From positions 1-26,964 of IMG/VR virus record IMGVR_UViG_3300004448_000181: a DNA stretch of 26,964 nt, one strand, 5' to 3'. The position numbers and the translations under genes were made by a program. The notes under the pieces are model-generated. The model had not been told where the DNA came from and made no database searches. It worked only from the letters and a program-made list of their open reading frames with translations. The DNA comes from a virus. Numbering within the stretch: position 1 is the stretch's first letter; each line of letters begins with the position of its first letter. Below, one piece after another: positions 7,171 to 17,842 of the stretch.

Positions 7171-7187
7171 GTTAGTGTGTCACTAAC
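7171..7187. repeat. Palindrome copy 1 (GTTAGTG-TGT-CACTAAC)
   Basis: Perfect copy of the dispersed 17-bp palindrome. Its last base is part of the stop codon of the HNH-like gene, and it lies 22 nt upstream of the SNF2 helicase start. On the plus strand it is followed by TATTTTTT, which would make a weak terminator, but no rightward gene is present; other copies lack any T-run. Confidence 0.9.
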
Positions 7188-7471: not shown

Positions 7472-8142
7472 TAGTTACTCCCATTGTGAGCGCACACGGT
7501 GACAGGGCAGTGCCTTTTGCACAGACCATTCGGGCGCGGATTCCAGACGTTTTTATCGGCGGCGATCTTCATGGCTTCATACTTGCCTAGCCATTTAGTC
7601 CACAAGGAACTGGTATCGTACTCATGGTACTTCGCTTTGATAAGATCATTACTAACAACAAACACTAACCCTGCTTTAATCTTCTTTACTTCGGGGTAGT
7701 GTATAAACACAGACAGAGCCATTAGTTCTAACTGCCCTTTGTCTGCGTATCGTGCATTTTTACCAGTCTTGTAGTCGATGACCCATGCGGTTTCCCCCAA
7801 CGTGTCAACAATTAGCAAGTCAATGATCCCACGGAACCAAACATCTTTATCGTAGAATCCACATGCGGTTAGGTTCTCAGTTACGCCTACCTTTTGTTCG
7901 CATAGCTTGACCCCTCGTTTGTCGTTAAGGGAATCAAGCATTGCTTGCGCGTAGCTAAACCTCTTAGGTAGAGGGGTATCACTACCAACGTAATCTTCTG
8001 CGGCTTTGTGAAACTCGTTACCGTACAAGATCGCATCGGTCTGGACGAAAGGATACTCTTTAAGTATTTTCTCGTGGTAAAACTGTTTAGGGCATTGTTC
8101 AAATGCTTTGATCTTGCTGAACGACCACGGTGCTACACTCAT
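7471..8142 (-). CDS. RecB/Cas4-like PD-(D/E)XK nuclease with probable Fe-S cluster
   Basis: A 223-residue nuclease. It opens with WSFSKIKAFEQCPKQFYH (the SxS-x-C-P motif of RecB/Cas4 nucleases). It continues with GNEFHKAAE (H45), GIIDLLI (D108), VIDYKTGK (D123, K125) and QLELMAL (motif QxxxY-like helix). C17 together with C208, C212 and C217 (CKRHCPVTVC) matches the four-cysteine Fe-S cluster of Cas4/AddB-type enzymes. Expected activity is ssDNA or end-directed exonuclease in phage recombination or DNA processing. ATG at 8142 overlaps the polymerase stop (ATGA) with GGAG upstream. The family call is strong; substrate is unknown. Confidence 0.9.
   Translation of the reverse strand: MSVAPWSFSKIKAFEQCPKQFYHEKILKEYPFVQTDAILYGNEFHKAAEDYVGSDTPLPKRFSYAQAMLDSLNDKRGVKLCEQKVGVTENLTACGFYDKDVWFRGIIDLLIVDTLGETAWVIDYKTGKNARYADKGQLELMALSVFIHYPEVKKIKAGLVFVVSNDLIKAKYHEYDTSSLWTKWLGKYEAMKIAADKNVWNPRPNGLCKRHCPVTVCAHNGSN
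7606..7617 (+). repeat. GGAACTGGTATC word, copy inside the RecB-like nuclease gene
   Basis: One of five exact copies of this 12-mer in the window, all on the plus strand. Here it encodes D-T-S-S on the minus strand. The surrounding 19 bases CACAAGGAACTGGTATCGT match 16732-16750 with one difference. Confidence 0.6.
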
Positions 8143-9968
8143 TCACAATCTCCGTAAGATTTTCCTAGTCCACTTTCACAATTGATAGGCAGACCTGCCG
8201 CCCAGTCGGGTGTCCAACGCATACGCTCCTCAACAAACGCTCTCGATTCGATCACGTCCTCGTCTTTTACACATACGACGATGGAGTCATGCACCGTTAA
8301 CACAATACGACATCTCTTGCTGATTTGTAACATTTGCTCACCAATAATGCAACGCGCTATCGCCTGACATACATTCTCTGTTACCTTCCCACCATAAATT
8401 CGGGTGCGACCACGCCGTGTCTTGTAACTATACTCAACACCACGCTCCCCTTGCTCACCTGATAAGTCGTCATAACGTAGCATCAAACCAGAAGGAAGAA
8501 GAATCCCACGTTCTGATCCCAACACTTTCAGTACACCTTCCCTACCTATCTGTATGGTATCGCCGTTCACCATGTACTTGATCATGTTCTGACAGTCGCG
8601 CCATAGCTGATTTATTTTCCAATTAGCCTCACGATAGATATTGATAACTCGACGCGCTTCATCCAGTTCCATTTCAAACCCAAAGCCTTTTAGCTGTTCT
8701 TGAAACCTAACTGCACCCATCCCATAACCTGCGCCAAGGATAGTAGTCTTACCTACAAACCGTTGGTCTTTAGTTATTTCGTCCTCGGCAACACCGTATA
8801 TGCGAGAAGCCATCACCTTATATACATCTTCATCGTTAGCGAATGACTGAGTAATGTCATCCTGACCTGCCAACCATGCGAGTACACGTGCTTCGATCTG
8901 CGAACTATCACAGTCAATCAACGTGTGTCCTTCTGGTGCTAGGATGCTACGCTTTAACTTCTTACCATTTGGGCCACGGCTAGGTAGGTTCTGCATGTTG
9001 ATCTTGTCATCACCACCCCATCGCCCAGTGTGTGCGGCGTAGTATCTTACTGGAACCGGCAAAGTCCCACGTTTACCTATGTCTATAAACCTCTGAGTAC
9101 GTGTTTCCTCAAGGGTACTCTTCGTACCCAGACGTGCGGCTACTGCCGCTTGCACTCGGTCATCCTCATGGTCAACCAGAGCCTTGAACTCTTCGTCGTT
9201 CTTGGCGAACGCGAATGTTTCTTTGCCTGTACGTAAACTTATTTTCATAGGCGGCTTTACGCCTAGACCCTCAAGCACTGCGGCAAACTTAGGGTTAGAC
9301 ATCAAGTCTTCCTTAGATACACCTGCATCCTCAAGTAGTTGGTCTTTACGTTCACGTGTGTCTTCAAGGTGCTGTTCAAGCAACCCAATGTCCAACTCCA
9401 AGAACGGTTCAGTAAACATACGTAACGTCATGTCTATTATCATAAGTTCTTGTTTAGGAAAGCCTTTCTTTAGGAAGATGTTGAAGAGTTTGTATGTTAA
9501 CTCGACATCATTTATGCAGTAGTCACCGTACAGCGCCAAGTCTTGTTCAGAGAAATCGGCTCGACGTTTGCCTAACGCGTTTAAGACTTCGGTTCCCTTA
9601 GTGCCAATCTGGTAGCGTTCAGACAACGCCCTGAGACTGCCGCCAACTTCCACCCCGTGTAAAGCACGGGCGATACACAAAGTATCGGTATACACGCGAG
9701 GATGAATATCAAACACCCAAGAGAGAATGGCACCATCAAACAAAGTGTTGTGAGCGAGAACCATGCTTTCTGCCCAGTTGAAGGTGTGTAAGTATCGTTT
9801 AAGTTGTTCATGCGTTCCGCTTGCCCATTCAGTTCCTTCATTGTTCACCTTGATACCCACGCCAATCACCTCAAATTGGTGATCGCGTACGTACTCCTCT
9901 GTTGTTAACTTAGACAGGGAAAAATCCCTGTCATAGTATGTTTCAAAATCTATTGTGATTAAGTCCAT
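8139..9968 (-). CDS. polA: Family-A DNA polymerase with 3'-5' exonuclease domain
   Basis: The 609-residue replicative polymerase of the phage. An N-terminal DnaQ-like proofreading domain shows Exo I DFETYYD (7-13), Exo II AHNTLFDGA (72-80) and Exo III YCINDVELTY (150-159). The polymerase domain shows motif A LIDCDSSQIEAR (350-361, catalytic D354), motif B RFVGKTTILGAGYG (403-416, K407, Y415) and motif C TVHDSIVV (558-565, D561). The residue equivalent to E. coli Phe762 is Leu411. The usual Glu after the motif C Asp is Ser562. There is no 5' nuclease domain. The ATG at 9968 overlaps the previous stop by one base and has GGGGGTGA upstream. Function is certain by motif; the two substitutions are discussed separately. 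Confidence 0.97.
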   Translation of the reverse strand: MDLITIDFETYYDRDFSLSKLTTEEYVRDHQFEVIGVGIKVNNEGTEWASGTHEQLKRYLHTFNWAESMVLAHNTLFDGAILSWVFDIHPRVYTDTLCIARALHGVEVGGSLRALSERYQIGTKGTEVLNALGKRRADFSEQDLALYGDYCINDVELTYKLFNIFLKKGFPKQELMIIDMTLRMFTEPFLELDIGLLEQHLEDTRERKDQLLEDAGVSKEDLMSNPKFAAVLEGLGVKPPMKISLRTGKETFAFAKNDEEFKALVDHEDDRVQAAVAARLGTKSTLEETRTQRFIDIGKRGTLPVPVRYYAAHTGRWGGDDKINMQNLPSRGPNGKKLKRSILAPEGHTLIDCDSSQIEARVLAWLAGQDDITQSFANDEDVYKVMASRIYGVAEDEITKDQRFVGKTTILGAGYGMGAVRFQEQLKGFGFEMELDEARRVINIYREANWKINQLWRDCQNMIKYMVNGDTIQIGREGVLKVLGSERGILLPSGLMLRYDDLSGEQGERGVEYSYKTRRGRTRIYGGKVTENVCQAIARCIIGEQMLQISKRCRIVLTVHDSIVVCVKDEDVIESRAFVEERMRWTPDWAAGLPINCESGLGKSYGDCE

Positions 9969-10462
9969 TAGAAGTCACCCCCTGCTAACTCACCACCACA
10001 CGCCATATAACCTGCCCCGTCCACCCAGTTGTCTGGATGTTTCGGATTAGAATTAATACGTGCTACCTTTAGAAGTGTCATCATCACGGCGACATCGGTA
10101 GGGTGTACAGGGTAGTCAAGATGCACCGACCAGTAATCAGCTATCCTAGAGAAGTTATTCTCCATATCCCCATGATCAGCCGCACGATCCTTAGTTACGT
10201 ACGCTTTAGCAGTATCAAGAATATGACCGCGAGAAAATCCCTCTGAGTTTCCCCCAGAGGGTAGTGGCTTTTTTCTGGTGCCGTTTGCTTCCTCCTCTGC
10301 GATAAACACCTCTTTAGGCGTTCCGATCTTCTGCATTAACTTGTAAGCGTACCCATACGATACGCCAGTAGCCTTTGCGACCTGTGCAGGGGTAGCTGTT
10401 TTATTCTTAACTAAATACGCCCATACCTTATCGGCTTTGGGGGATTGTTTCTTGGTACTCAT
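9968..10462 (-). CDS. HTH plus DUF6378-like phage protein
   Basis: A 164-residue protein in two parts. Residues about 10-50 (VWAYLVKNKTATPAQVAKAT, then GVSYGYAYKLMQKIG) look like a winged helix-turn-helix. Residues about 80-164 (ILDTAKAYVTKDRAADHGDM, then NNFSRIADYWSVHL, then DVAVMMTLLKVARINSNPKH, then NWVDGAGYMACGGEL) match the pattern of DUF6378, a common phage domain of unknown function. A linker rich in Lys and Gly joins them. AGGAGAACGAC precedes the ATG, the leader shared by several genes here. It lies just upstream of the polymerase and is translationally coupled to it. A role in nucleotide metabolism or regulation is possible but unproven. Confidence 0.8.
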   Translation of the reverse strand: MSTKKQSPKADKVWAYLVKNKTATPAQVAKATGVSYGYAYKLMQKIGTPKEVFIAEEEANGTRKKPLPSGGNSEGFSRGHILDTAKAYVTKDRAADHGDMENNFSRIADYWSVHLDYPVHPTDVAVMMTLLKVARINSNPKHPDNWVDGAGYMACGGELAGGDF

Positions 10463-11003: not shown

Positions 11004-11342
11004 CTAAACAGGTGAGCCTTCAAAATCTAACTCTAACTGTCGTGGGTCGCGGTGCTTACCGCCAACATAGACCAACACGTCATCTATATTGTCTTCGTTA
11101 ATGACAAGACTTATGCCATCGTTAGCTTTTATATCAGATAAATTCTTTTCTTGCAAGGGAGTTGGTTTGTTTTTACCTGCCTTACATTCTATACCAAAGA
11201 ACTTACCCTCGTAGCATCCGATGATGTCAGGAACGCCACTCTTACCGTATCCTCCTGTAACTGGATAGAAGTAGTAGGCTCCTAACATCTTTAGGTGCGC
11301 CGCTACTTTCTTCTTAACTTTTGCTTCTGGTGTCATTGCCAT
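11004..11342 (-). CDS. VRR-NUC domain nuclease
   Basis: A 112-residue stand-alone VRR-NUC domain of the PD-(D/E)XK fold. Visible are the N-terminal helix with TPEAKVKKKVAAHLKMLG, the catalytic GVPDIIGCYEGKFFGIECK (D39, E52, K54) and the KNKPTPLQ segment that usually follows. Phage VRR-NUC proteins are proposed structure-specific nucleases that work with SNF2-type helicases, and one is encoded in this same operon. AGGAGA lies upstream of the ATG at 11342. The start overlaps the zinc-ribbon gene by 29 nt. The assignment by motif is firm; the physiological substrate is not known. Confidence 0.9.
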   Translation of the reverse strand: MAMTPEAKVKKKVAAHLKMLGAYYFYPVTGGYGKSGVPDIIGCYEGKFFGIECKAGKNKPTPLQEKNLSDIKANDGISLVINEDNIDDVLVYVGGKHRDPRQLELDFEGSPV

Positions 11343-11556: not shown

Positions 11557-11573
11557 GTTAGTGCCGCACTAAC
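11557..11573. repeat. Palindrome copy 2 (GTTAGTG-CCG-CACTAAC)
   Basis: Perfect copy, separated by a single base from the stop codon of the 88-residue gene and 60 nt upstream of the zinc-ribbon start. It marks the junction between the MoxR/VWA-associated genes and the replication genes. Confidence 0.9.
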
Positions 11574-11574
11574 A

Positions 11575-11841
11575 TTACACACGGAATATCCAATAAACAT
11601 TATCATCAATCCGTCTGCCTACCGCTTCAACCTCACTGGTTGGCTTATCCAATGGGGTCATCATCAGTAGAGCAACCTTCTCTTGCATCCACAAAGGAAG
11701 GTCATCCACTGAAGGGTACTCTCCACTGACCGCGCTGTCAACTTCCATGCCAATACATGACACCTCGACAGTGTTGGTGTGTGGGTTTACGTAGACGCGG
11801 TATACGTTATCATCATGTGGTAAGTCGTTATCGCACGACAT
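11575..11841 (-). CDS. Hypothetical acidic protein (88 aa)
   Basis: An 88-residue protein starting at MSCDNDLPHDDNVYRVYVNP; the ATG at 11841 has GAGGG upstream, and the longer frame would run deep into the previous gene. It overlaps that gene by 14 nt. The product is acidic, with alternating beta-like stretches (VYRVYVN, TVEVSCIGM, NVYWIFRV) and no membrane segment. I do not recognise a family. It ends the gene series attached to the MoxR/VWA module and is followed at once by a palindrome copy. Confidence 0.6.
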   Translation of the reverse strand: MSCDNDLPHDDNVYRVYVNPHTNTVEVSCIGMEVDSAVSGEYPSVDDLPLWMQEKVALLMMTPLDKPTSEVEAVGRRIDDNVYWIFRV

Positions 11842-12706
11842 AAAACATACCCTCACCTGCGGAGAAGCCAACATCATCAACGTAATCATTGGCTTGCAGG
11901 ATATTGAGTACAGAAAGTTTCTGCATAATGTCTTCGGGTAACGTATCCGTTGTGTATCGTTTTACATCGTCACTGATCTCTACATTGTAATTACTCTCAG
12001 CATTGTCGATGTCGATCACATCAAACATCTGCTGATCCATACGCTCGTATACTCGTACAAACCACATTGGCACGGTGCGTCCTTTCAATCTATTCAGTTC
12101 ATCTTGCTTAGCAAAGAAGTCAGTAAGTCGTTCACCAAACATAGCGTCAATAAACTCATAGTTACTGTTCATCAGGTGCCGTAGTTCATTGAGTAGAGTA
12201 GACCCCTCGTTGGTACGTGAGGAATATAAACTCTGCTCCACGTCGATCACCTTGTTACGTATCTCGGTGAACTCACCCTTTGCCACTTCAACCACACTAT
12301 CCACTGCATTCGACGCGTCTCGTAGACGTGTGCCTGCTAGCTCTTGCGGTGACATCATACGTATAAACTTCTTAGCGTTACGTACTGCCACATCAAAATT
12401 GGTGGACATCTTCATGAAGTATTGCTTGCTGTACTCGGCATACTTGCCGTTCACAATCGTACGTGCTTGCACAACATACATGGGCGTACCATCACCACCA
12501 TCTCGGTAGTCACCGAAACCTACCCACCCTAGTATGTATGGGCAATCTTCTCGGTATATCCAACAACTTGCTGAGTTGCGTGGGTGCATCTTCACACGTA
12601 GTTCCTTACACACCCGCGCCGCCAGTGTCGTTGCTTCATTGTCGAGCATGTCCTTCGGACTGTTTGTTAGTGCGTCACTAACAAGTTGGTATTCATATCT
12701 AGCCAT
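11828..12706 (-). CDS. Unknown protein of the MoxR/VWA module (292 aa)
   Basis: A 292-residue soluble protein without a recognised domain. It opens MARYEYQLVSDALTNSPKDM, where codons for VSDALTN coincide with a copy of the 17-bp palindrome (12666-12682). The middle is helical (RLRDASNAVDSVVEVAKGEF, then LLNELRHLMNSNYEFID) and the C-terminus is acidic. AAGGAGAACGAC precedes the ATG at 12706. It follows the 54-aa and VWA genes closely, so it belongs to the same transcription unit and may be a substrate, adaptor or structural partner of the ATPase-VWA pair. That link is positional inference only. Confidence 0.7.
   Translation of the reverse strand: MARYEYQLVSDALTNSPKDMLDNEATTLAARVCKELRVKMHPRNSASCWIYREDCPYILGWVGFGDYRDGGDGTPMYVVQARTIVNGKYAEYSKQYFMKMSTNFDVAVRNAKKFIRMMSPQELAGTRLRDASNAVDSVVEVAKGEFTEIRNKVIDVEQSLYSSRTNEGSTLLNELRHLMNSNYEFIDAMFGERLTDFFAKQDELNRLKGRTVPMWFVRVYERMDQQMFDVIDIDNAESNYNVEISDDVKRYTTDTLPEDIMQKLSVLNILQANDYVDDVGFSAGEGMFYVVR
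12666..12682. repeat. Palindrome copy 3, inside a coding region (CGT centre)
   Basis: GTTAGTG-CGT-CACTAAC lies within codons about 9-14 of the 292-residue gene. With copy 5 it shares the reading frame and extra flanking bases (TTTGTTAGTGCG), so both encode VS-x-ALTN. Confidence 0.9.
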
Positions 12707-12723
12707 TGTCGTTCTCCTTAAAC

Positions 12724-12888
12724 TTAGCCGTTTCTGATTTTATTGAACGCATCGTGTACTTGTTGTGCGCGTCTCTTCATTGCCATACGTGCCTCGAATG
12801 TCTCCTCTGTCTCGGCACGTGTCTCTAACTGTTGTACCCTATGGGCTACAGTTTCTTCCATTAGCTTCAATGCTTCTTGATAGTCCAT
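12724..12888 (-). CDS. Small helical protein between VWA and 292-aa genes (54 aa)
   Basis: A 54-codon gene with ATG at 12888, one base after the VWA gene's stop codon, preceded by AGGGAG at a 6-nt distance. The sequence (MDYQEALKLMEETVAHRVQQ, then LETRAETEETFEARMAMKRR, then AQQVHDAFNKIRNG) is almost entirely charged helix with heptad-like spacing, consistent with a short coiled coil. The tight spacing and strong binding site make it a credible gene despite its size. It may be a partner or adaptor in the MoxR/VWA module; no family is known to me. Confidence 0.7.
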   Translation of the reverse strand: MDYQEALKLMEETVAHRVQQLETRAETEETFEARMAMKRRAQQVHDAFNKIRNG

Positions 12889-12889
12889 G

Positions 12890-14146
12890 TTACATCTCCC
12901 TTGATGTTATGTTTACGTGCTTACCTGTATCAGGCTTTGCACTCTTGTTGTCTAAGATGCACCATAGCACAGGGCAAGACCACTGACCCCATGATCCACC
13001 AAGGTACCCATCGGTGAGAACAATCGCGGCTTGTGGCTTGACACCATGCTCGGTGAGGTAGTCGGTAACGCACTCAACATTAGTGCCACCACCACCCTTG
13101 GGCTTGGTAGTCTTCACCAGTTCGTCTAGCTGGTGCATGTCGTACTTCTCGTCCTGACACACACGTGTGTCCCAGTAGAGTAAGCGGATATGATCAGGGT
13201 GCACCGTGTCGCAGATAGCCTGTATCTCTGACATGAAAGCTGTAAGTTCTAACTGACCAATGGAGCCTGACGTGTCAACGGCAATGACCAGTTCACCCAC
13301 CTGCTCGCTGATACCGCTAGGCATGTAGTAACCTGATGACACGTAACGCCTGTTCGGTCGTTGCCATGTCGAGTAGTCATTACCTGCACATGTGGTCTGT
13401 ATAAACTCACGCAATACCTCGCGCCAATCTATCTGTGGTTCGAGTAGTTGCTCAAGGTCACGATCACCACCACTGCCCATCTTACCTGCGATCAACGCGC
13501 CCTGACGTATTGCCTCGTCAACATCACGTGCTAACTCGCGCTTCTCATCTGGTGTAAGTTCGGCGGCACCATCCCAGTCATGGCTGTCGAAACCTTTAGG
13601 TGATTCATCACCTGACCCCTCGTCGCCATCTTGTGGTGAACCGTTACCACCTGATCCCTCACTATCTTCACAGTCGTCGCCACCACTATCTTGTGGTGAG
13701 CCGTTATCACGTAGGTCAATAAAGACTGCCGCTGAATCCCAGTGTCGATACTTCACATCGAGGCACCCACCTTGGGGCATGACTGCCCAACCATCGGTGT
13801 TGTCATCCGCAATCTTGATGTTGATCACATAGTCACACGCTTGGTTGGCAAGCTGAGCATCTTGGTCGTGCAGATGTCGCCATGTAGTAAGGTGTTTATA
13901 CAGCTTGTGGTATACCTCATGAAGTACAAGGAACCGTAGTTCTGCATCGTTGAGCGAGTCAATGAAGTCTCGCCCATACATCTCGTCACGTCCGTTGGTA
14001 CATGCCGTTGGTATGTTGTCCACCACCGAACGATCACCGATCATGAGGACACCTGCGAGGGCAACGTATTTAGGGTTGCCCATGATGTCAACGACAGCTT
14101 TGGATAGTCGTTGCTCTGGGGTAAGTTGTTTACCTATTGCTAACAT
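12890..14146 (-). CDS. Metallopeptidase-like plus VWA domain protein (DUF2201-like)
   Basis: A 418-residue protein with two recognisable halves. Residues about 1-145 resemble the putative metallopeptidase domain that pairs with VWA-like (DUF2201) proteins; HEVYH at 76-80 is a textbook HExxH zinc motif. Residues about 148-192 form an acidic Gly/Ser/Asp linker with the repeated unit NGSPQD. Residues about 285-418 are a von Willebrand A domain with MIDAS signature DTSGS (291-295), GGTNV (353-357) and LTDG (377-380). AAGGAGA precedes the ATG. It follows the MoxR-type ATPase directly. MoxR-VWA pairs elsewhere (RavA-ViaA, CbbQ-CbbO, chelatase I-D subunits) act as chaperone- or chelatase-like machines; the target here is unknown. 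Confidence 0.9.
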   Translation of the reverse strand: MLAIGKQLTPEQRLSKAVVDIMGNPKYVALAGVLMIGDRSVVDNIPTACTNGRDEMYGRDFIDSLNDAELRFLVLHEVYHKLYKHLTTWRHLHDQDAQLANQACDYVINIKIADDNTDGWAVMPQGGCLDVKYRHWDSAAVFIDLRDNGSPQDSGGDDCEDSEGSGGNGSPQDGDEGSGDESPKGFDSHDWDGAAELTPDEKRELARDVDEAIRQGALIAGKMGSGGDRDLEQLLEPQIDWREVLREFIQTTCAGNDYSTWQRPNRRYVSSGYYMPSGISEQVGELVIAVDTSGSIGQLELTAFMSEIQAICDTVHPDHIRLLYWDTRVCQDEKYDMHQLDELVKTTKPKGGGGTNVECVTDYLTEHGVKPQAAIVLTDGYLGGSWGQWSCPVLWCILDNKSAKPDTGKHVNITSREM

Positions 14147-14156
14147 AGTCTTCTCC

Positions 14157-15248
14157 TTACTTCTTGTCGGCGGCGAACATGTAGTTGTTGTCCATTGCCC
14201 ATTGAGTAAACTTCTTGTTGGTCATCACGACCTTGCGGTGTGCATACTTCTCGGCACTACACCCATTGGCGAACATACCTTGTGCTTCCTTGTCGAGGCG
14301 CACCATGTAGTCCATCCATGCGGCGATCCAGTCGGCTCCCATAGTAGATAGGCTACGGTAAACAACCATACACACGGCGGCGGCACTGTCAGGGACCTTG
14401 GCATTCTTGGGATCGTCCTTGATAGATTGCAGTGACGGTAGTTGGTCGGCTAGTTTGACAAAGGCCATCAAGTCCATAGCGCCACGTTCACCAATGGTAC
14501 CCATGAGTAAACCTGTTAACGTCTGATCATCGAAGTGCTCTCGTGTCTTGAGCCAGTCGGACGCGGCCTCAAGTGAGCGCGGTGTAACAAACGCGGTACG
14601 TTGTTGCTTGGGGTGGTAGATGTAGGGATTGTCATCGGGGTCTTTGACATCCTCGAACCCATGAAACAAATGGGGGTTGTCCTTACACCAACCAAGTAGT
14701 GTGTGGTCAACACCGTTGTTGATACCCCACTCGATCCACTCCATGTTGTCAGGTTTACGTGCGGTGATCACCGTTATGCGGTTCCTCGCATGTGGTGGTA
14801 GTAGATCACCGACACCCTCAGCACCAAGGTTAGTTGTAGCAAACACTAAGCTGTCAGGGTGCAGTTCGTACCCACCGATCTTGCGCTCCAACATGACACG
14901 TAGTAACGCGTTCTTCACCGCAGGGTTAGCCTTGCCATACTCGTCGATCATGAGAATGATAGGTGTCTTGTGGTGTGCGCCCAACTCCTCATTGGTCGCG
15001 TACGAAACGTAATCGGCGTTATCCAGTTGGTTCATCTTGGGTATGGTGATGTCGCCTAAGTCCTTGGTGGTACAGTCGAAGTAGCACGGTGTGTGCTTGG
15101 GTAGGTCACGTGATAACGTGGTAAGTAGTGATGACTTACCTGTACCCATGTGCCCTTGGACAAGGACGGTGCGCTTGTCACCACCCTTGAGTATTGATGT
15201 TGCGATTTGGTCTAAGCCAAGTGCGTACATTTGAATTGCTGAGTTCAT
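14157..15248 (-). CDS. MoxR-type AAA+ ATPase
   Basis: A 363-residue AAA+ ATPase. Walker A is GHMGTGKSS (32-40), Walker B ILMIDE (98-103), sensor 1 FATTN (136-140), and the HARNR stretch (153-157) supplies likely arginine-finger residues. The GKANPAVKNALLRVMLERKI region after Walker B is characteristic of MoxR/CbbQ/CobS-like proteins. The C-terminal about 150 residues are helical lid and unknown sequence. GGAGA precedes the ATG. Palindrome copy 4 lies 20 nt upstream of the start. It is encoded next to a VWA protein, the usual partner; together they probably form a ring ATPase plus adaptor that remodels or inserts metal into a target protein. Confidence 0.93.
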   Translation of the reverse strand: MNSAIQMYALGLDQIATSILKGGDKRTVLVQGHMGTGKSSLLTTLSRDLPKHTPCYFDCTTKDLGDITIPKMNQLDNADYVSYATNEELGAHHKTPIILMIDEYGKANPAVKNALLRVMLERKIGGYELHPDSLVFATTNLGAEGVGDLLPPHARNRITVITARKPDNMEWIEWGINNGVDHTLLGWCKDNPHLFHGFEDVKDPDDNPYIYHPKQQRTAFVTPRSLEAASDWLKTREHFDDQTLTGLLMGTIGERGAMDLMAFVKLADQLPSLQSIKDDPKNAKVPDSAAAVCMVVYRSLSTMGADWIAAWMDYMVRLDKEAQGMFANGCSAEKYAHRKVVMTNKKFTQWAMDNNYMFAADKK

Positions 15249-15267
15249 AATATTTCTCCGTTGATTT

Positions 15268-15284
15268 GTTAGTGCGGCACTAAC
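15268..15284. repeat. Palindrome copy 4 (GTTAGTG-CGG-CACTAAC)
   Basis: Perfect copy in the 39-nt gap between the 305-residue gene and the MoxR-type ATPase gene: 3 nt beyond the former's stop and 20 nt from the latter's start. Confidence 0.92.
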
Positions 15285-15287
15285 TGA

Positions 15288-16205
15288 TTAAAGGTCTATT
15301 GATGGAAGTGCTTTGATGACATCATCGACAGCACGTTTAGTTTCTGCGCGAAGGTAGCCATCCTCGCGCAATGCGTCTGGTGTAATACCACGTAGGGCAT
15401 CATCCAGTTTCATGCGCATCGCTGACATCTGACTGTCACCTGTTACGTTGCACACATCCAGTAGATCGACGAGATCAACCACGTTGGACACTAGCGTGTC
15501 ACGAAACACTTTCTTCTGTTCGTGATCGGCATAGTCGAGACGCTCTGACATCTTGGTCAATGCTTTGAACGCTCGTTGCCATACGTCATTCATGGCGTTG
15601 GTCAGTTGCTCGGAGTAATACGACTGGTAGTGCTCGCGTACTAACTCGTTACCCTCGTTACCTATATCCACCCTGAAGTCACCTGCATCTGGTAACGGTA
15701 TATATGAGAAGCGAAAGTTGAACTTGTTGGCTATGCTCTCCGCCGATGGATAGTCATCGTGTGAAAACAAGTTGCCAAGCCTTGCCTGTGACTGACTGAT
15801 CGCCCAGTCGTATGTGTCGATAAAGGTCTGAACCATTCGGCTGTACTCGTTCTGAACCTCGGTCATTGCCTGATGGTATTTGAAATACTGAGCAGTCGGT
15901 AGTAATCGAAGGCCAGTATCAGACCACGGCATTGTCATGCTGTAATGTAGGTTACGAACATTAGCGGTAAACTTCTGTACCGCCGTGAGTTCATCGCAGT
16001 TGCCCAGTAGTTTCTTGTGGACGTTTGCGATACCTGCATCGGCATGGTTGGTTGTGGTGACATCTTTTGATGCACGCTTGTCTAACTTGCGCCCAGTCCA
16101 TGTACTGATGCTTAACTCTACCAACATAGATGAAGAGCCAATGGATGGTGCTGTTACCGCATGGTCGTTTGTTAGTGCGGCACTAACATTGCTTTCGTGT
16201 GACAT
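15288..16205 (-). CDS. Unknown first gene of the MoxR/VWA module (305 aa)
   Basis: A 305-residue protein with no recognised family. It begins MSHESNVSAALTNDHAV; the VSAALTN codons coincide with palindrome copy 5. AGGAGAACGAC precedes the ATG at 16205. Predicted features are a polar N-terminus of about 45 residues, then largely alpha-helical sequence (NEYSRMVQTFIDTYDWAISQ, then LTNAMNDVWQRAFKALTKMS, then RDTLVSNVVDLVDLLDV). There is no membrane segment. It is the first gene after the strong leftward promoter at 16304-16332, so it heads the operon containing the MoxR and VWA genes. Helix-rich proteins commonly accompany phage MoxR ATPases, but I cannot name a domain. A later start at MLVELSIST is possible but lacks a comparable binding site. 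Confidence 0.75.
   Translation of the reverse strand: MSHESNVSAALTNDHAVTAPSIGSSSMLVELSISTWTGRKLDKRASKDVTTTNHADAGIANVHKKLLGNCDELTAVQKFTANVRNLHYSMTMPWSDTGLRLLPTAQYFKYHQAMTEVQNEYSRMVQTFIDTYDWAISQSQARLGNLFSHDDYPSAESIANKFNFRFSYIPLPDAGDFRVDIGNEGNELVREHYQSYYSEQLTNAMNDVWQRAFKALTKMSERLDYADHEQKKVFRDTLVSNVVDLVDLLDVCNVTGDSQMSAMRMKLDDALRGITPDALREDGYLRAETKRAVDDVIKALPSIDL
16171..16187. repeat. Palindrome copy 5, inside a coding region (CGG centre)
   Basis: Perfect copy covering codons about 7-12 of the 305-residue gene, 18 nt after its start. Same reading frame as copy 3 in an unrelated gene. Confidence 0.92.
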
Positions 16206-16303: not shown

Positions 16304-16332
16304 ATTATGCCACAAATAGCGAGACATGTCAA
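16304..16332 (-). promoter_or_regulatory. Strong sigma70-type promoter for the leftward operon
   Basis: On the minus strand: -35 TTGACA (exact consensus), 17-nt spacer, -10 CATAAT (5 of 6). Expected start is near 16297, about 90 nt upstream of the 305-residue gene. It is the best leftward promoter seen and probably drives the MoxR/VWA and replication genes. Identified by consensus only. Confidence 0.7.
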
Positions 16333-16501: not shown

Positions 16502-16518
16502 GTTAGTGCCACACTAAC
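16502..16518. repeat. Palindrome copy 6 (GTTAGTG-CCA-CACTAAC)
   Basis: Perfect copy in the non-coding region, bordering the AT-rich stretch that begins at about 16519. Confidence 0.92.
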
Positions 16519-16752
16519 TTTACCCATTAGATACAATTATTATTATATAGAACAATAGATATAAATAATAAGAAAACTAAACAAACTACAAAAGCTGATA
16601 AGCAGGTTATGCTAACGCATGTCAGTAATTGCCACTCGATGGCATCAAAACTAAATGTACGTTTGACACTTCACAAAAGCGAACAATAGCCGAACATTAC
16701 GAACATTAGTGCGAACAAAGGCTCAGCGCGACACAAGTAACTGGTATCGTGT

Positions 16753-16769
16753 GTTAGTGTGACACTAAC
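16753..16769. repeat. Palindrome copy 7 (GTTAGTG-TGA-CACTAAC)
   Basis: Perfect copy in tandem-repeat unit 1, 4 nt after the GTAACTGGTATC word. Confidence 0.92.
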
Positions 16770-16854
16770 AAAGCCAGCAGGCTGCGCTACATGCAACCAT
16801 GTGATGACGTGCACACGTGAGGCTCAGCGCGACACTAGGAACTGGTATCTTGTT

Positions 16855-16871
16855 GTTAGGGCTACACTAAC
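16855..16871. repeat. Palindrome copy 8, degenerate (GTTAGGG-CTA-CACTAAC)
   Basis: The equivalent position in tandem-repeat unit 2; one arm base differs (GTTAGGG for GTTAGTG). It is the only imperfect member found. Confidence 0.8.
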
Positions 16872-16978
16872 ACCCAGCAGCCCGGTGGCTCTAAGGTGTC
16901 ACGTGGTAACACGAACACACGAGGCTCAGCGCGACAGAAGGAACTGGTATCGACTGCGCCAAAGCGCAGGCATAAAAA

Positions 16979-16998
16979 AACCCCGCCGAAGCGGGGTT
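16979..16998 (-). terminator. Rho-independent terminator for the 17.0-17.7 kb unit (UUCG loop)
   Basis: Stem AACCCCGC / GCGGGGTT around TTCG on the minus strand, then a run of T residues (A-run at 16974-16980 on the plus strand). It closes the two-gene leftward unit at 17003-17688 and separates it from the origin-like region. A second small hairpin, CTGCGC-N4-GCGCAG (16954-16969), follows immediately. Confidence 0.88.
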
Positions 16999-17002
16999 GA
17001 TC

Positions 17003-17179
17003 TTAGTTGACAATTGAATCCCAAATTGCCGTGGGTGTTAGGCAAGAGTTAGTTGCTGTCCAATATGATTGATCCCATGACTCACAACCTAGTAACAAGT
17101 TAATGATGATGAAAGCAAACAAGAGGCCGATTGCGAAGGTGGCCGCTAGGCCACCTCCTATTTCAATCAAGCGCTTCAC
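17003..17179 (-). CDS. Small membrane protein with GTG start (58 aa)
   Basis: A 58-codon gene whose GTG overlaps the TGA of the upstream gene (GTGA), implying translational coupling; it ends 5 nt before the terminator stem. The product starts MKRLIEIGGG, has one strong hydrophobic helix (LAATFAIGLLFAFIIINLLL, about 11-30) and then a polar region of about 28 residues with two cysteines (GCESWDQSYWTATNSCLTP). Positive residues before the helix suggest N-in/C-out topology, so the cysteines could form a disulfide outside the inner membrane. It may act in host-envelope modification, superinfection exclusion or lysis; this cannot be decided from sequence. Confidence 0.65.
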   Translation of the reverse strand: MKRLIEIGGGLAATFAIGLLFAFIIINLLLGCESWDQSYWTATNSCLTPTAIWDSIVN

Positions 17180-17688
17180 TTGAGTACCGCCAAGGCAACC
17201 TTGATCTTGGCAATCATGTCAGTCAGATCGAAGGTTGCTTCCTCCGCTGTCTGGCACACCTTGATAACATCGTTCAAGTTATCGCGGACCCGTTGATCAA
17301 GTGGACGGTTGCGTGATCCTGCACCGTCTGACTTGTCACCATCTAAGCGCTTGCTGATCTGTGACTTGAAGTCACCGATGCGAGCACCGATCTGTTGTTG
17401 CCAGTATCGCTTGTCACTCTTTTGTATTTCAGTAAGTGACTTAGTGGGCTTGGCTAGCAATGCCTGATTAGACTTAGTGAAGCCCATGACAACCGCTGAT
17501 CTAAGCGCTGTCCATTCATCCGCATGGATGGTTGAACCGTCTGACTTAGGGCTGACGTAATCAGTCACCTTGTCAAACCCGTCTGCTATTAACAAGTCAA
17601 GCGCCGCAACGCCCGCCTTGTCTGCCTTGATGCCTAGCTCAACCGCGCTAGCTATTTTCTTTTGTGTTGCTGTGTTTAAAGTACGCAT
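17176..17688 (-). CDS. Unknown helical phage protein (170 aa)
   Basis: A 170-residue protein, ATG at 17688, with AGGAGAATGAC upstream (the same leader type as several other leftward genes). The sequence is alpha-helical and polar: MRTLNTATQKKIASAVELGI, a middle part with KSDKRYWQQQIGARIGDF, then SQISKRLDGDKSDGAGSRNR, and a C-terminal helix ATFDLTDMIAKIKVALAVLK. No domain is recognised. It forms a two-gene unit with the small membrane protein, bounded by its own control region and terminator. Such short independent units beside the divergent promoters often carry early host-takeover genes; that is inference. Confidence 0.7.
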   Translation of the reverse strand: MRTLNTATQKKIASAVELGIKADKAGVAALDLLIADGFDKVTDYVSPKSDGSTIHADEWTALRSAVVMGFTKSNQALLAKPTKSLTEIQKSDKRYWQQQIGARIGDFKSQISKRLDGDKSDGAGSRNRPLDQRVRDNLNDVIKVCQTAEEATFDLTDMIAKIKVALAVLK

Positions 17689-17825: not shown

Positions 17826-17842
17826 GTTAGTGTCACACTAAC
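17826..17842. repeat. Palindrome copy 9 (GTTAGTG-TCA-CACTAAC)
   Basis: Perfect copy in the divergent control region between the leftward 170-residue gene and the rightward terminase genes. It is the rightmost copy; none is present in the structural half. Confidence 0.92.

Follow-up and report, generated by a model that had tools for sequence, protein, structure and literature searches.

The window is a contig of 26,964 bases from an uncultivated virus (IMGVR_UViG_3300004448_000181), and its genes are arranged in two arms. Genes left of about 17.7 kb lie on the minus strand and have replication functions: a primase/helicase, a single-strand binding protein, a helicase, an exonuclease, a family A polymerase, and a nuclease. 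From about 17.9 kb rightwards, genes lie on the plus strand, with the large terminase and portal genes first. The terminase is nearest to those of pelagiphage HTVC027P (46%), phage DSL-LC04, and cyanophage MinM2, and a DNA similarity search against known phages gave no match. Relatives in IMG/VR are up to 60-67 kb long, and the phages that carry the genes described here are marine, with genomes of about 60 kb.

Six open reading frames listed in a preliminary description of this DNA, at positions 11575-16205 of the minus strand, are all present (Table 1). Reading away from the promoter, they comprise 305, 363, 418, 54, 292, and 104 (or 88) codons. They appear to be real genes, because dN is lower than dS wherever dS can be computed, and this includes the 54-codon gene. 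The first three encode a DUF3150 protein, a MoxR-type ATPase, and a metallopeptidase joined to a von Willebrand factor A (VWA) domain. This triad opens the replication arm and lies opposite the structural arm.

Table 1. Positions of genes and sequence elements in the window.
Feature	Coordinates	Strand	Basis or remark
DUF3150 protein, 305 aa; third triad member	15288..16205	-	PF11348
MoxR/midasin-clade AAA+ ATPase, 363 aa	14157..15248	-	phrog_1297, PDB profile matches, motifs
Metallopeptidase (HExxHxxxxH), acidic linker, C-terminal VWA; 418 aa	12890..14146	-	PF13203 + PF09967
54-codon accessory gene	12724..12888	-	37 loci
292-aa protein, specific to this phage clade	11828..12706	-	AlphaFold2
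104-aa protein	11575..11889	-	hhalign probability 95.7, E=9e-9
Nuclease-like protein, 112 aa; same arm, downstream	11004..11342	-	phrog_93 endonuclease
Family A DNA polymerase; same arm, downstream	8139..9968	-	PF00476 E=2.9e-36
170-aa protein, first gene of leftward arm	17176..17688	-	phrog_12501 HTH E=0.0038
Sigma-70 promoter TTGACA-17-CATAAT, extended TG	16304..16332 (read 16332-16304)	-	11/12 consensus match
Palindrome directly upstream of helicase gene	7171..7187	.	
Palindrome past 104-aa gene, upstream of 60-aa and nuclease genes	11557..11573	.	
Palindrome inside 292-aa gene 5' coding end, encodes VSDALT	12666..12682	.	same position in relatives
Palindrome GTTAGTGnnnCACTAAC, between DUF3150 stop and MoxR start	15268..15284	.	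same position in relatives
Palindrome inside DUF3150 5' coding end, encodes VSAALT	16171..16187	.	same position in relatives
Palindrome, long leader region	16502..16518	.	
Palindrome, long leader region	16753..16769	.	
Imperfect palindrome, long leader region	16855..16871	.	
Palindrome, divergent control region upstream of 170-aa gene	17826..17842	.	

The 363-aa protein is a MoxR-type AAA+ ATPase, as had been proposed. It matches phrog_1297 (E=9.5e-44), and a profile search of the PDB places midasin first (1.9e-46) and gives NorQ as the best prokaryotic MoxR protein (1.1e-08). Its motifs include a Walker A sequence (GHMGTGKSS), a Walker B sequence (ILMIDE), and an arginine finger (R157). These motifs and sensor 1 are conserved in relatives, which establishes the protein as a MoxR AAA+ ATPase.

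The assignment of the 418-aa protein as an HExxH peptidase with a VWA domain is confirmed by matches to PF13203 (DUF2201_N, E=3e-27) and PF09967 (DUF2201, E=1e-16), both above the cut-off. A zincin domain, with the motif HEVYHKLYKH at residues 76-85, and a complete MIDAS (D291-S293-S295, T355, D379) identify it as a DUF2201 metallopeptidase-VWA protein. Residues H76, E77, H85, N101, and D105 and the MIDAS D, S, S, T, and D are invariant in all 93 close relatives that include the region; H80 is kept in 92 of the 93, and N109 is invariant or nearly so. The peptidase and MIDAS residues are also invariant in an alignment of 15 sequences from marine phages, N4-like phages, a jumbo phage, and plasmids. 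Because these residues are invariant or nearly invariant, both catalysis and metal-dependent binding appear to be under selection.

The metallopeptidase-VWA protein has matches in 693 of the phage records searched. The corresponding PHROG family, phrog_1314, is labelled 'HNH endonuclease' despite its DUF2201 domains, and this label is common in RefSeq phage records. In Agrobacterium phage Atu_ph07 (L109, 6839-8128), the peptidase motif is naturally HQxxH, and this phage may therefore not need catalysis. The reference record of phage rV5 (L107, 6680-8162) contains a frame-broken copy.

The 305-residue protein, previously described as an unknown, belongs to Pfam family PF11348 (DUF3150), with a score of 26.7 bits and a gathering cut-off of 24.9. 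Members in plasmids and in MinM2 are below the Pfam cut-off, yet they match a family profile with E values of 1e-52 to 1e-87, the MinM2 member being one of the sequences used to train that profile. The predicted structure is mostly helical and of moderate confidence (pLDDT 77, pTM 0.47). A fold search with this structure gave no significant match, and a sequence search of the PDB gave nothing below E=0.03. When the profile was compared with 399 sampled Pseudomonadota genomes, only one, the chosen centre, had a match. DUF3150 is thus rare in cellular genomes outside the Burkholderiaceae elements described below.

The preliminary description had grouped the MoxR and metallopeptidase-VWA genes with their neighbours as a phage module, and the co-occurrence counts support this in part. 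By using the VWA protein, the 292-aa protein, and several DUF3150 proteins as seeds, we gathered 185 viral loci, which were reduced to 95 groups without any common exact 120-mer. The counts describe this clade, because the loci were chosen by similarity to the window, and depend on contigs long enough to include the neighbours: groups with at least 3 kb downstream of DUF3150 have the VWA gene in 72 of 72 cases and the MoxR gene in 71, and those with at least 2.6 kb upstream of VWA have both MoxR and DUF3150 in 69 of 69. Before redundancy removal, the counts were 63/63 and 61/63, and 49/49 and 48/49. The gene order is mostly DUF3150-MoxR-VWA, with MoxR-VWA-DUF3150 in one distant subgroup, and a nuclease is encoded downstream of the triad in 32 of 32 groups. 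Independent variation of the neighbours was to have counted against the module. DUF3150 shows no such independence; within this marine phage clade, it is the only obligate partner of the pair.

The smaller genes fare differently by the same measure. The 54-codon gene is accessory and is confined to the closest relatives (37 loci), with dN of 0.19 and dS of 0.58 in the comparison with locus L030. The 292-aa family is nearly constant within the clade, being downstream of the triad in 29 of 32 non-redundant groups, and a search of 50,697 phage records found no match up to E=1. Its sequence matches are exclusively uncharacterised proteins of uncultured phages. The AlphaFold2 model of this protein has a pLDDT of 91.1, and its comparison with the PDB found no fold match. 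The last gene is present, as was listed, and its length is more probably 104 codons than 88, with an ATG at 11889. This start overlaps the 292-codon gene by 62 nt, and the 104-codon length is kept in many relatives. According to hhalign, the 104-aa protein duplicates, as a separate protein, the C-terminal domain of the 292-aa protein. Perhaps these two proteins are phage-specific substrates or adaptors.

The same trio occurs in other genomic contexts. In cyanophage MinM2, the MoxR and DUF3150 genes are one small gene apart, and the DUF3150 and VWA genes are three genes apart. Plasmids of Burkholderia cenocepacia and Simplicispira carry MoxR, VWA, and a DUF3150 homologue (profile E values of 2e-52 and 8e-69). 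A genome scan revealed 33 loci in Burkholderiaceae, with VWA in all 33 and MoxR in 32, the remaining locus ending at a contig edge. These loci belong to conjugative elements with a type IV secretion system (T4SS), and VirB11, VirB2, VirB3, and VirB4 genes are also present in 27-28 of the 33. As in the phages, all three homologues are in one operon, but the order is MoxR-DUF3150-VWA, with DUF3150 in the middle, the flanking genes differ, the VirB genes are alongside, and no 292-aa gene was found. Conserved gene order within a single phage clade is weak evidence and by itself proves no complex; the recurrence of the trio elsewhere is stronger. The triad is a tool common to mobile DNA, namely phages and conjugative plasmids of soil bacteria.

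DUF3150 is not detectable beside the pair in records of N4-like, rV5-like, and jumbo phages, Bacillus phage G, or plasmid pSYSA, and neither the triad nor the palindromes described below were found in the stretches read of HTVC027P, HTVC023P, and DSL-LC04, the nearest isolates by terminase. Because many phages have the pair without a recognisable DUF3150, the pair is taken as the core machine, to which DUF3150 is not essential. DUF3150 is instead a subtype-defining partner of this core.

The earlier statement that this phage gene set lacks an assigned role needs some correction (PMC7824862, PMC4193335, PMC8651126). A MoxR protein with a metallopeptidase-vWA partner is reported in group 2.2 jumbo phages, for which a role in virion assembly is proposed (PMC7824862). 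In N4-like phages, gp24 (AAA+) and gp25 (vWFA) are within a 14-gene core, and in N4 they are middle transcripts (PMC4193335). Similar pairs are named CobST in archaeal tailed viruses and cyanophages (PMC8651126). The pair in phages is therefore already published. A search of open-licence papers found neither the term DUF3150 nor any report of the triad or of its occurrence in plasmids.

The jumbo-phage pair comprises the same two proteins, with the peptidase N-terminal to VWA. In contrast, the genes studied here form a triad with DUF3150 in the replication arm of marine phages of about 60 kb, and no DUF3150 turned up in the jumbo and other large phages examined. The N4-like gp24/gp25 genes are homologous, adjacent or nearly so, and early or middle in expression, and the catalytic HExxH is kept; however, they are about 17-32% identical, belong to another phage family, and have no DUF3150 that we could find. 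NorQ/NorD, CbbQ/CbbO, and RavA/ViaA also combine a MoxR ring with a VWA partner. Their clients are cellular enzymes, and these partners are not known to have a zincin domain or DUF3150.

The use of the name CobST (PMC8651126) suggests a viral cobaltochelatase, in which the MoxR protein would be CobS and the VWA protein CobT. This already disfavoured explanation is hardly tenable here, as the VWA protein matches the Pfam families DUF2201_N and DUF2201 rather than CobT and lacks the CobT architecture, NCBIfam yields only a sub-threshold BchI/ChlI match, and CobN is absent among the window proteins scanned. CobT is also not known to have an HExxH peptidase domain.

The core pair is likewise the same as in the MoxR-vWA-centred ternary systems of biological conflict (PMC7159879), one of which might be carried aboard this phage. 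This is very improbable, because the third protein is DUF3150 rather than a VMAP, iSTAND, or FtsH-type protein, the VWA protein has no variable effector domains, and the proteins are conserved rather than diversifying.

The product of the operon is proposed to be an ATP-powered remodelling protease that acts early on a phage replication or transcription protein or on a host protein, and not on the virion; we give this reading a probability of about one half. The MoxR protein would form a hexameric ring, and the 418-aa protein would dock on it through its VWA domain, which ATP hydrolysis would turn. In the cryo-EM structure of NorQD, a VWA finger sits in the MoxR pore, and ATP hydrolysis twists the partner (PMC13036017). 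The best solved relatives of the phage MoxR protein include midasin and NorQ, each of which is known to act together with a VWA domain, and this clade-level match makes NorQD-like docking likely by analogy. The N-terminal zincin domain, placed where NorD has its N-terminal domain, might cut or open the protein held by the machine, and the selection on both the peptidase site and the MIDAS argues for binding as well as cutting. The highly conserved DUF3150 protein could be a substrate adaptor or a regulatory subunit. Gene content, domain identity, the conservation of catalytic and MIDAS residues, co-occurrence, and genomic position are observed; the docking, the proteolysis, the role of DUF3150, and the early timing in this phage are inferred.

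The timing bears on the choice of target. In the N4-like phage PEV2, homologues of the pair are annotated as early-transcribed on the basis of RNA-seq. Taken with the middle transcription of N4 gp24/25 and the position of the triad at the head of the replication arm, from which the machine would be made early, this speaks for an early-acting remodelling protease rather than for the published proposal on the jumbo-phage pair (PMC7824862). By analogy to Acidianus two-tailed virus, that proposal would make the machine a virion-assembly chaperone with processing of structural proteins, and some N4-like roseophages indeed have a second structural module near their gp24/gp25 homologues (PMC4193335). 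Here, assembly is nonetheless an improbable role, because the triad sits with polymerase, helicase, and nuclease genes, and because conjugative plasmids keep the trio without having a virion.

Early regions of phages share the trio with conjugative T4SS elements, and DUF3150 is rare in cellular genomes. This could also mean that the machine serves counter-defence or host take-over, inactivating some host protein directed against DNA that enters the cell, to the benefit of phage and plasmid alike. This is unlikely. PADLOC gave no defence-family match of note, and, unlike typical anti-defence genes, the triad is seldom missing from members of the clade and its sequences are strongly conserved.

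The predicted consensus promoter ahead of the operon is borne out by its 11/12 match to sigma-70 and by several relatives, for example L022, in which the hexamers are kept and the spacer has diverged. The same pattern did not find a promoter in about half of the relatives checked.

The 17-bp palindrome GTTAGTGnnnCACTAAC occurs at nine sites in the window (one imperfect), compared with 0.02 expected. Several sites separate a stop codon from the ribosome-binding site of the gene that follows, and those in the first codons of the DUF3150 and 292-aa genes impose the peptide VSxxLT. Other lineages have other palindromes in equivalent places, such as TTTACGGAATTCCGTAAA (nine copies in L076), TTTAGGGAnnTCCCTAAA (L072), GTTAGGGAnTCCCTAAC (eight copies in L045), and GGTTCAGnCTGAACC (MinM2). 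Among the 84 non-redundant loci that are 7 kb or longer, 65 have a palindrome with 7+7 arms in at least three copies, with 30 arm/gap types, and such sets arose in none of 143 order-1 shuffles. The sites are near the start of MoxR in 42 of 62 cases and of DUF3150 in 43 of 64, and near those of the polymerase and its upstream neighbour in 0 of 25 and 0 of 24. In each of six long contigs, all sites fall within about 7-14 kb around the triad; in MinM2, they occur genome-wide.

The occurrence of about 30 lineage-specific palindromes at equivalent positions implies a co-evolving regulator or an RNA element. The palindromes look like the operator set of such a regulator; alternatively, they may be an RNA hairpin element. 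Cluster O mycobacteriophages have 17-bp palindromic repeats (PMC4351075) that share the 7+3+7 dyad, the high copy number, and the frequent location between genes or near gene starts. Those studied here differ in having conserved positions in a homologous operon and about 30 sequences across lineages. Stoperator-type sites, which are asymmetric, oriented with transcription, and bound by the repressor of a temperate phage, were also considered and rejected; the sites here are palindromic, and their geometry instead fits the Cluster O repeats.

No repressor that binds the palindromes was identified; the 170-aa protein is a weak candidate, on the basis of its sequence. A conserved basic segment of this protein (KRYWQQQIGA...) varies roughly with palindrome type, as judged by eye in 76 sequences. 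This co-variation is suggestive, confounded by descent, and has counter-examples in L039, L170, and L172. The lineage-specific palindromes offer a natural series in which co-variation could reveal the phage regulator.

Genes for MoxR and metallopeptidase-VWA proteins occur in many phages, belong to the core set of N4-like phages, and are widely mislabelled, and their function is so far a matter of prediction. The DUF3150 triad provides a defined three-protein unit, in phages and conjugative elements, that is open to reconstitution and to a search for substrates. A speculative extension, which we consider doubtful, is that the DUF3150-type machine is a dedicated mobile-DNA protease that phages and conjugative plasmids use on arrival in the cell. 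In the marine phages, it would be under positionally fixed palindromic operators that have diverged some 30 ways, implying a fast-evolving, immunity-like regulator.

Further elements were observed in and around the leader and the replication arm. Within a non-coding leader of about 800 bp, a 34-nt direct repeat (AGGCTCAGCGCGACACNAGNAACTGGTATC) occurs three times at 16719-16955, with a spacing of about 102 nt, and is a possible origin or control element; its core, ATACCAGT, recurs near palindromes in other lineages. A protein of 164 aa (9968-10462) matches PHROGs families labelled 'phosphofructokinase', and within the clade a related small protein adjoins it. Just past a possible 58-codon gene (17003-17179), a strong stem-loop (AACCCCGCTTCGGCGGGGTT, 16979-16998) is followed by a T run on the minus strand and is likely a terminator ahead of the triad promoter.
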